From: an uncultured SAR86 cluster bacterium | Lineage (GTDB): Bacteria; Pseudomonadota; Gammaproteobacteria; Magnimaribacterales; Magnimaribacteraceae | Assembly: GCA_902532015.1 (NCBI GenBank) | Contig: CACAGI010000010.1 | Span: forward strand, 1 to 43,228 | Length of the DNA: 43,228 bases | Direction of reading: 5' to 3' | Part shown: in pieces, positions 8,158 to 10,673 of the stretch | Numbering within the stretch: position 1 is the stretch's first letter | Layout of the letters: the number at the start of each line of letters is the position of its first letter | Made by a program: the position numbers and the translations under genes | The notes under the pieces: model-generated | Database searches by the model: none | The model's input: only the letters and a program-made list of their open reading frames with translations | What the model was told of the DNA's origin: nothing

Positions 8158-8703
8158 ATGACTAAAACATCAGTCTCATCAATATTTTCAGAACTTTCAA
8201 AATTAGACGAAGATACTTTTCCACCTGTTGAGAAGTGGGACCCGCCTTTATGCGAGAACGTAGAAATGCGAATTGACAGATCTGGAAATTGGTTTTTTAT
8301 GAATTCTCCTATTGGAAGAGAAAGAATGGTTAATTTATTCAGTAGAGTACTGCGATTGGATTCAGATGGCTTTTATTATCTAGTTACTCCTGTAGAAAAA
8401 ATTAGGATTATTGTGGAAGACAAGCCATTTGTAATTATAGATTTTGAGATTCTTGGTTCTGGTAAACATCAAATAATAAATTTTAAAACAAATACTCATG
8501 AGACCTTTTCTTTAAATTTAGACCATCCACTAAGAGTTGAAGTAAACAAGGAAACTTTAGAGCCATCACCCTACGTATTAGTTAGAAAAAACTTAGAAGC
8601 TTTAATATCTAGAAATGTATATTATAAATTAATTGATTTAGGAGAAGAGAAGGGCACTGATTTTGGAGTTATAAGCCAAGAATCATTCTTTAAATTATAT
8701 TAG
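8158..8703 (+). CDS. DUF1285 family protein
   Basis: This 181-residue cytoplasmic protein matches the DUF1285 family (PF06938) by the phrases FPPVEKWDPPLCENVEMRI, RSGNWFFMNSPIGRERMV and FYYLVTPVEKIRI, which is the normal order in the family. No signal peptide or membrane segment is visible. Its biochemical role is unknown. The ATG directly follows the exporter stop and it is the last gene of the plus-strand run. Just downstream lies a hairpin whose T tract is on the minus strand, so that terminator serves the opposing transcript better than this one. Confidence 0.85.
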   Translation: MTKTSVSSIFSELSKLDEDTFPPVEKWDPPLCENVEMRIDRSGNWFFMNSPIGRERMVNLFSRVLRLDSDGFYYLVTPVEKIRIIVEDKPFVIIDFEILGSGKHQIINFKTNTHETFSLNLDHPLRVEVNKETLEPSPYVLVRKNLEALISRNVYYKLIDLGEEKGTDFGVISQESFFKLY

Positions 8704-8708
8704 GCGCA

Positions 8709-8736
8709 TAAAAAAACAGAGCCTAAGCTCTGTTTA
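8709..8736 (-). terminator. Intrinsic terminator, minus strand
   Basis: A nine-base stem (8714-8722 with 8727-8735) encloses the tetraloop CTAA. Read on the minus strand it is followed by a run of seven T, the classical rho-independent arrangement. On the plus strand only three T follow, so it would be weak for the DUF1285 transcript. It marks the 3' end of a minus-strand transcript that starts near 8923. Confidence 0.75.
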
Positions 8737-8754
8737 GTTCGAGTTCGAAAGTGT

Positions 8755-8853
8755 CTAGATTTGAGTCTTTTTCTCTAGCTCCTTGATCAATTTCTCTTTT
8801 GATCTTGGTGGTCTAATAAATCTTTTGGTACCTTTCTTTATTAGAGCTTTCAC
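8755..8853 (-). CDS. Possible 32-residue basic protein with a GTG start
   Basis: Within the short minus-strand transcript one frame is open from 8976 to the TAG at 8755-8757. It has no in-frame ATG, and the first conventional start after the predicted transcription start is the GTG at 8851-8853. The product would be rich in Lys and Arg, with phrases such as KALIKKGTKRFIRPPRSKEK. The upstream part of the same frame also reads like protein (NYPIRKQLETGEGRDKEVRE), so a longer product with an ATT or other rare start is conceivable. An AGAGAA lies about ten bases before the GTG. I recognise no family, so this is a weak call. Confidence 0.22.
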   Translation of the reverse strand: MKALIKKGTKRFIRPPRSKEKLIKELEKKTQI

Positions 8854-8929
8854 CTTCCGTTCTCTAACTTCTTTATCTCTTCCTTCTCCCGTCTCGAGTT
8901 GTTTCCGGATCGGATAATTAAGTAAGGTA

Positions 8930-8957
8930 ATAATACTCTTTTTAACTGACGCGTCAA
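8930..8957 (-). promoter_or_regulatory. Sigma70-type promoter on the minus strand
   Basis: On the minus strand TTGACG (8957-8952) and TATTAT (8935-8930) are separated by 16 bases, a near-consensus pair. Transcription would start near 8923. A-tracts upstream at UP-element distance strengthen the call. A perfect ten-base palindrome, TGACGCGTCA (8947-8956), overlaps the -35 box and could be an operator. Confidence 0.6.
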
Positions 8958-8960
8958 CAC

Positions 8961-8990
8961 TTTTTTTAACTTTTTTTTAACTTTTTTTTT
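8961..8990 (-). repeat. Three helically phased A-tracts (UP-element-like)
   Basis: On the minus strand runs of nine, eight and seven A are separated by GTT. The tracts begin at 8961, 8971 and 8982 on the plus coordinate, that is 10 and 11 bases apart, matching one helical turn. Relative to a start at 8923 they occupy about -38 to -67, the position of UP-element subsites. The arrangement predicts an intrinsic bend and contact with the RNA polymerase alpha subunit. Confidence 0.6.
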
Positions 8991-9023
8991 AATAAAATTA
9001 TACTTTCTAAGTTATTGAAAATA

Positions 9024-10673
9024 TTACATATTTGGGTAATTTGGTCCTCCTGCACCTTCTGGTGTTACCCAATTAATATTTTGTGATGGGTCTTTTATGT
9101 CACAAGTTTTGCAGTGCACACAATTTTGTCCATTTATTTGAAATATTTTTTCTCCATCTTTCTCTATAACTTCGTATACACCTGCAGGACAATATCGTTG
9201 AGCTGGCTCATCGTACATAGGTAGATTCACTTCTATTGGAATTGTTGGATCCTTTAAAACTAAGTGACAAGGTTGGTCTTCTTCATGATTTGTATTTGAT
9301 AAAAACACTGAGGAAAGTTTATCAAAACTAATTACTCCGTCTGGCTTAGGGTAATCAATTTTCGGCATTTTATTGGCTTCTTGTAAGCATTCATGATCAG
9401 GTTGGTCATGATGAAGTGTAAAAGGTAACTTGCCCCTAAATATCAGTTGATCCATTCCAGCTAAAGCAACACCGAGTAAAGTTCCAAATTTATGTATAAA
9501 AGGTAAAAAATTTCTTGCTTTATGCAGCTCTTTTTCTAGCCATGAAGATTGTAAATTAGCTGTAAACTTGACAATGTCTTTTTCGGGTTCTTCTTTAAAG
9601 AATTCTTCGTAAATACTTTCTGCACCGATCATTCCTGATTTCATTGCTGTGTGTGTTCCTTTAATTCTTGGAAAATTCATTGTTCCTGCATCGTCTCCTA
9701 CAAGAAGCCCTCCGGGGAAATGCATTTTTGGTATTGATTGATAGCCACCTTTTATGAGTGCTCTTGCTCCATAAGCAGTCCTTGTCCCTCCCTCTAGATA
9801 CTTCTTAATAGAAGTCTGATGTTTCCATTGTTGGAACTCATCGAAAGGACTAATATGAGGGTTATCGTAATCCAAAGGAACTATATAACCCAAAAAGGCT
9901 TGATTATTTTCACCATGATAGAAATAAGAACCTGAAAGAACTCCTTTCGCAGCTGGCCAACCCATTGTATGGATTACTAAGCCTTCCTCGTGAATGTCAG
10001 GATTTATATCCCAAACTTCTTTAAAGCCAATTCCATAATGTTGAGGATCACTATCTTGATCCAGTTTAAAATTACTTATAACTTGTTTTCCCAAATGTCC
10101 TCTACATCCTTCAGATAAGACAGTATATTTAGCTAAAAGATCTATTCCCGGTTCATAGCTAGGTTTCTTTTCACCAGAAGCATCTAACCCCATATCTCCG
10201 GTTGCAACTCCTATTACAATTCCGTTGTCGTAAATAAGTTTAGAAGCCGTAAACCCAGGAAAAATATCAATCTCCAATCCTTCAGCATACTCACTTAACC
10301 ATCTACAAAAATTTCCTAGACTCATTATGTAGTTACCATGATTTTTAAATGTAGTTGCAAATAATGTAGGTATAGAGAATGAAGTTGAGTCATTTAGTAA
10401 GTACCTAACAGAATCTTTTTTAACTGGCGTATTTAAAGGTGCTTCAAGTTCCTTCCATTCAGGTATTAATTCATTAAGAGCTTTAGGATCAAATACATTG
10501 CCAGAAAGGATATGAGCACCAACCTCAGAGCCTTTTTCTACTACGCAAATAGAAATTTCTTTAGAATTTTCTTTACATAATTGCTTTAGTTTTATTGCAG
10601 TAGACAAACCAGCTGGACCAGCTCCAACAATTACTACGTCATACTCCATTGATTCTCTTTCAGTGTTTTCCAT
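9024..10673 (-). CDS. Electron transfer flavoprotein-ubiquinone oxidoreductase
   Basis: EtfQO takes electrons from reduced ETF and gives them to quinone at the inner membrane, linking acyl-CoA dehydrogenases to respiration. The 549-residue length is typical. The N-terminal FAD motif is VVIVGAGPAGLSTA. GGLLVGDDAGTMNFPRIKGTHTA forms the second flavin segment, and the C-terminal 4Fe-4S domain has its four ligands in YCPAGVY and CVHCKTC. The first ATG (10673) lacks a good ribosome-binding site. The ATG at 10649 has AAAGAGA a few bases upstream and would start nearer the FAD motif, so it may be the real start. The gene diverges from etfB-etfA, its electron donor, across a 79-base spacer. Confidence 0.95.
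   Translation of the reverse strand: MENTERESMEYDVVIVGAGPAGLSTAIKLKQLCKENSKEISICVVEKGSEVGAHILSGNVFDPKALNELIPEWKELEAPLNTPVKKDSVRYLLNDSTSFSIPTLFATTFKNHGNYIMSLGNFCRWLSEYAEGLEIDIFPGFTASKLIYDNGIVIGVATGDMGLDASGEKKPSYEPGIDLLAKYTVLSEGCRGHLGKQVISNFKLDQDSDPQHYGIGFKEVWDINPDIHEEGLVIHTMGWPAAKGVLSGSYFYHGENNQAFLGYIVPLDYDNPHISPFDEFQQWKHQTSIKKYLEGGTRTAYGARALIKGGYQSIPKMHFPGGLLVGDDAGTMNFPRIKGTHTAMKSGMIGAESIYEEFFKEEPEKDIVKFTANLQSSWLEKELHKARNFLPFIHKFGTLLGVALAGMDQLIFRGKLPFTLHHDQPDHECLQEANKMPKIDYPKPDGVISFDKLSSVFLSNTNHEEDQPCHLVLKDPTIPIEVNLPMYDEPAQRYCPAGVYEVIEKDGEKIFQINGQNCVHCKTCDIKDPSQNINWVTPEGAGGPNYPNM

Follow-up and report, generated by a model that had tools for sequence, protein, structure and literature searches.

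What is transcribed from the 320-base intergenic gap at 8704-9023 of this window, the whole 43,228-nt stretch of SAR86 DNA analysed here? The gap separates a DUF1285 gene (8158-8703, plus strand) from an EtfQO gene (9024-10673, minus strand), both names being those of an earlier sequence-only reading and not of a family-library match. The earlier note had described in it a minus-strand unit in which A-tracts precede TTGACG-16-TATTAT and a 9-bp hairpin leads into T7, all of which are confirmed in the sequence (Table 1), and had recognised no standard RNA family, such that the product might be undescribed. On this last point it was wrong: an Rfam scan gives IMES-1 (RF02034) as a full-length, untruncated match of 133.1 bits against a gathering cut-off of 81 (E 1e-28), and this is the sole Rfam family above cut-off in the whole window. 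The stretch 8923-8709 on the minus strand encodes IMES-1, a small RNA that is catalogued and has no known function; its length from promoter to terminator is estimated at about 215 nt, with a start placed some 7 nt past the -10 hexamer. The window RNA has the same helices and conserved loops as the Rfam family and displays no family-level difference from it, although the structure line of the match carries neither the self-complementary loops nor the contact between the P4 and P5 loops discussed below. IMES-1 was reportedly described in 2009 from marine metagenomes and is said to be very abundant in ocean RNA samples, with no cultured host; the name is absent from the papers in our literature search, which does not cover the source papers of 2009 and 2017. 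Because IMES-1 was already catalogued, the novelty lies not in the gene but in the strong evolutionary evidence for self-pairing and in the map of its SAR86 hosts.

Table 1. Features of the IMES-1 locus, in window coordinates.
Feature	Position	Strand	Basis
IMES-1 RNA gene, inferred start to end of T-tract	8709..8923	-	promoter, Rfam match, terminator
Rfam RF02034 IMES-1 match, model 1-191 of 191, 133.1 bits	8729..8922	-	Rfam profile search
A-tracts, possible UP-like element	~8959..8990	-	sequence; A/T tracts recur 5' of the -35 in relatives
-35 hexamer TTGACG	8952..8957	-	sequence; TTGAC/TTGCA kept in relatives
-10 hexamer TATTAT, 16-nt spacer	8930..8935	-	sequence; kept in relatives
Loop A palindrome CUCGAG, apical loop of 5' hairpin	8893..8898	-	Rfam structure line; alignment
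P2, multibranch closing helix, 5' arm (pairs with 8746-8751)	8854..8859	-	Rfam structure; covariation
P3 5' arm (pairs with 8812-8820)	8837..8845	-	covariation
Loop B palindrome GGUACC, P3 apical loop, proposed symmetric kissing site	8827..8832	-	loop survey
P3 3' arm	8812..8820	-	covariation
P4 hairpin, loop GAG at 8794-8796 facing CUC of P5	8785..8804	-	P4 pairs covary
P5 hairpin, loop CUC at 8763-8765	8755..8778	-	relatives' alignment; covariation
P2 3' arm	8746..8751	-	Rfam structure; covariation
Intrinsic terminator AAACAGAGC-UUAG-GCUCUGUUU + T-tract	8709..8735	-	9-bp hairpin + T7

By number, promoter-like sites within 4 kb stand at chance level (16 vs 15.9 expected from shuffles), TTGACG-16-TATTAT being the top-scoring of the 16 (10/12), and terminator-like sites likewise do not stand out by number alone (3 vs 1.7 in shuffles). 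The promoter and terminator are lifted above chance by the folding of the RNA body, which beats 200 of 200 shuffles (z -3.2), by the 133-bit family match and by their recurrence at matching positions in relatives. Across 30 oriented relatives, promoter, body and terminator all align; a promoter of the form TTG-spacer-TAnnnT is matched at 92 of 108 distinct loci, with a 16-nt spacer in 86 of those, and T7 or longer stands at the 3' end of all 108, while the terminator hairpin is kept in relatives, where an A-U pair has become U-A by compensatory change. That the unit has its own promoter and terminator, as had been proposed, is borne out by this recurrence, and the conservation in close relatives on which the earlier note had staked its reading extends to promoter, body and terminator alike.

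The proposal that the unit would specify either a small RNA or a very small gene stood in its first half, given that helices covary and no reading frame is conserved. In a covariance analysis of homologous spacers, which had been suggested as a check, 86.5% of the cells in IMES-1 helices are paired, compared with 69.4% in shuffles, and helix covariation reaches 0.438 compared with 0.144 in shuffled and at most 0.114 in slid controls; for P3, changes on both sides occur across relatives in 9 of 9 pairs. The loops of P4 and P5 are also complementary to one another: most sequences have GAGA in one loop and UCUC in the other, the window has GAG and CUC, and one sequence from SAR86 family f1 (L029) has GAAGA and UCUUC. 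Together with the GGGU and ACCC loops of the sister family IMES-5, the L029 variant supports a loop-loop contact, and the P4 and P5 loops probably touch, most simply inside one molecule.

The host of IMES-1 is the marine SAR86 order, in which the RNA scores above cut-off in 121 of 203 genomes. A class-wide sample of 369 genomes yielded just three matches, all from the SAR86 order, and IMES-1 was not found in the sampled gammaproteobacterial genomes outside that order. Among named GTDB genomes, a degenerate IMES-1 pattern likewise recovered records that are mostly SAR86; SAR86A, SAR86E and D2474-A1-1, a complete genome, are among them. Profile-confirmed matches under non-SAR86 names are mostly 'Gammaproteobacteria' metagenome-assembled genomes or contigs broken inside the RNA, and we suspect that these records are mislabelled or mis-binned. 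IMES-1 fragments with 96-98% identity to SAR86 copies occur on three short IMG/VR contigs (L139, L141 and L143), which end inside the RNA; in L141 and L143, whose genes were read, the junction with phage structural genes falls within the RNA. We take all three as probable chimeric assemblies, perhaps reflecting a very abundant IMES-1 RNA. Four other viral pattern matches and a minority of those in genome_contigs lack an IMES-1 profile match and were set aside as chance, and a phage origin was rejected after no match emerged in 50,697 phage records.

Within the order, IMES-1 is present in families f1, f2 and f4 and absent from f3, where weak matches were identified instead as IMES-5 (RF02995). 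Neighbouring genes are conserved within parts of SAR86 only: in f1 they are EtfQO and DUF1285, and in other parts pyruvate kinase is among them. Of the two kinds of conservation that the earlier note wished to see examined, that of sequence therefore holds for RNA, promoter and terminator, whereas synteny breaks down between families. Since the neighbours change in this way, IMES-1 is a stand-alone gene, and for the same reason its action is most likely in trans. A role as cis-regulator of EtfQO was rejected on three grounds: EtfQO is encoded on the same strand but upstream of the RNA, promoter and terminator belong to the RNA itself, and the neighbouring genes vary from family to family. Two copies of IMES-1 occur in several SAR86 genomes, as tandem pairs spaced about 315 bp in some and at distances of 1-10 kb in others (L004, at 1189-1399 and 1503-1714, as well as L048, L073, L088, L092, L104, L109, L114 and L117).

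IMES-5 is present in f1 and f3 and was not found in families f2 or f4 (examples include L195 1516-1663, L146 998-1148, L208, L215, L200, L220 and L221, among others). It gave no match up to E 10 at window positions 8600-9100, and none was found in the incomplete assembly of the window's own genome. In f1 genomes with both RNAs on one contig (e.g. G005, G008, G010 and G016), IMES-1 and IMES-5 lie about 14 kb apart, a spacing that could run off the end of a contig and so would explain why IMES-5 is unseen in the window's genome. In f3 genus g9 (L195 ~1306-1663; L145 850-1350), IMES-5 sits, as judged by eye, between a tRNA gene and a frame resembling tryptophanyl-tRNA synthetase. The two RNAs are alike in a 5' hairpin with loop A CUCGAG, in a GGGUGA-AAG segment and in adjacent P4 and P5 loops able to pair, and IMES-5 cross-matches the IMES-1 model weakly, at 34 bits; they differ at P3, which is capped by a GAAA tetraloop in IMES-5 and by a palindrome in IMES-1. 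From the loop-A hairpin, core segment and P4/P5 contact held in common, IMES-5 is apparently homologous to IMES-1, and the two could share one Rfam clan. By our tally, one or the other occurs in about 150 of the 203 SAR86 genomes, many of the remainder being incomplete. Both RNAs are hereby assigned to SAR86, together with a map of which families carry which.

A feature of IMES-1 that bears on its architecture is that both apical loops, unpaired in the Rfam drawing, centre on a six-base palindrome. Loop A reads CUGCAG in f2 and f4 and CUCGAG in f1, and one of these two hexamers is present in every sequence readable at that column (100 of 100 in a 103-sequence alignment; 45 of 45 in a second count). 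Loop B, by comparison, takes 11 different hexamers, all of them self-complementary: seven by Watson-Crick pairs (GGUACC in the window, GUCGAC, GUUAAC, GUAUAC, GCUAGC, GCAUGC and GCCGGC) and four with G-U pairs (GUCGAU, GUCGGC, GUUGAC and GUGCAU). A self-complementary hexamer occurs in 40 of 40 distinct P3 loops, whereas 2000 shuffling trials average 6.4 and never exceed 13, and counting Watson-Crick pairs only the figures are 30 vs 3.4; in this count the automatic stem call is off for L076, yet that sequence carries GUCGAC. When f2 and f1 plus f4 were aligned separately, the stretches at loops A and B alone were self-complementary in every sequence, and 7 of 7 distinct loop-B hexamers were self-complementary in each of the two alignments. 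Covariation within loop B is 0.657 in f1 plus f4, compared with 0.142 when shuffled and at most 0.139 when slid, and in f2 the loop is 100% paired with 6 further pair types. On a tree made without loop B, the hexamer changes about 20 times; 14 of these 20 changes alter two or more bases with self-complementarity kept, and the remaining 6 are single changes, all between a Watson-Crick and a G-U pair. This tree is a rough one, drawn from a short RNA, with hexamers read via a list of those already found. Predicted duplex energies of the hexamers range from -5.6 to -14.7 kcal/mol, the weak end being held by GUUGAC (-5.6) and GUUAAC (-6.4). For loop A, with one two-base switch only, the covariation may reflect a single event.

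At the centre of such a hexamer stand two adjacent bases, which are unable to pair within one chain, so that their joint change points to pairing between molecules. The same adjacent-base argument is used for the homo-oligomers of OLE and GOLLD (Kretsch et al. 2025, PMC12286853). Self-complementary loops that vary between species suggest that IMES-1 copies pair with each other. Two molecules would pair through like loops, A with A and B with B, and these symmetric kissing loops would yield dimers or larger assemblies, whether a closed dimer, a ring or a chain. In a weaker step of the model, the assembly would act as a structural scaffold or a sink for a partner, not as an Hfq-type antisense RNA or a CsrA sponge; a scaffold or sink role for the assembly is a guess. 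We consider it likely that IMES-1 is a stand-alone, probably trans-acting gene whose RNA self-joins via loops A and B. We also lean towards viewing IMES-1 as a natural homo-oligomer built on two palindromic kissing loops, to which f1 may add IMES-5 via loop A. If so, mixed RNA-only particles of IMES-1 and IMES-5 would exist in f1 of the largely uncultivated SAR86.

The most serious alternative to self-joining is that IMES-1 is an ordinary monomeric small RNA whose palindromic loops are protein-binding or otherwise fixed motifs, their self-complementarity being incidental. The RNA has many conserved unpaired bases besides the loops, the dimer is an inference from sequence, and loop A taken alone could be a fixed motif, all of which leaves this reading some weight. 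Loop B, however, keeps its self-complementarity and not its sequence, with 11 hexamers and none failing, and such variation argues against a protein site, which would be expected to conserve sequence; we regard the monomer as unlikely. A classical trans-acting antisense RNA, pairing with mRNAs with the aid of a chaperone, would fit the stand-alone gene, the intrinsic terminator and the long U-tail, but conservation covers the whole structure instead of a short seed, and profile searches with models that do match in E. coli found Hfq in 0 and ProQ in 0 of 61 SAR86 genomes, making this reading improbable. That neither chaperone was found in the searched SAR86 genomes seems in itself unusual for Gammaproteobacteria.

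Sequestration of CsrA through GGA motifs, in the manner of CsrB or RsmY, draws on the several such motifs in the RNA and on the presence of CsrA in the window's own genome and in family f1. Across the 61 genomes, CsrA occurs in 29 of 35 from f1 and 9 of 9 from f3, but in 0 of 9 from f2 and 0 of 8 from f4, and with 0 of 17 in these two IMES-1-bearing families, a CsrA sponge was rejected for IMES-1 as a family and is a very remote prospect overall. A 6S RNA or other housekeeping RNA of the lineage, suggested by the small size, structure and own promoter of the RNA and by the reported abundance of IMES-1, has almost nothing left to commend it: no other housekeeping family matches the locus, and a separate 6S RNA (RF00013, 87.7 bits), also a stand-alone small RNA of the same genome but of a different locus and family, lies on another contig, which rules out 6S identity. 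Equally negligible is a very small encoded protein, for which overlapping ORFs of 32-36 aa with GTG starts are available; a start with an open frame of at least 9 codons is common to at most 39 of 103 sequences, and the compensatory base changes favour RNA. With 6S excluded, neither Hfq nor ProQ found in the 61 genomes and no CsrA found in f2 and f4, a structural or scaffold role, or the sequestration of a partner, is what is left for IMES-1, and this is the likeliest function, though unproven. As a separate observation, the distribution of CsrA (f1 and f3, not f2 or f4) follows the same split as that of IMES-5, and this common split may point to a link between the two; it covers only four families, so that one shared ancestry could explain the match.

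Few natural RNA homo-oligomers are known to us, and we know of no IMES-1 structure. For an RNA that lacks a known function, the self-joining reading offers a structural prediction that can be tested directly, with natural compensatory variants as a guide. The six-base palindrome in a purine-flanked apical loop resembles that of the HIV-1 DIS (reviewed in PMC7357161), although the latter is a packaging signal of a viral genome without homology to IMES-1, and IMES-1 has two such loops. Another parallel lies with OLE, GOLLD and ROOL, all of which have symmetric kissing loops; for OLE and GOLLD these are backed by palindrome-to-palindrome changes, as in IMES-1 (Kretsch et al. 2025, PMC12286853), and the few palindrome types described there in that argument are outnumbered by those of IMES-1. 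The main text of that study makes no mention of IMES RNAs (PMC12286853). GOLLD, ROOL and OLE are large RNAs with cryo-EM structures (PMC12286853), whereas IMES-1 falls short at about 215 nt of the several hundred that mark a large ornate RNA; it shares with OLE and GOLLD a palindromic loop that covaries with itself. At this size, IMES-1 should lend itself to study more readily than GOLLD or ROOL.
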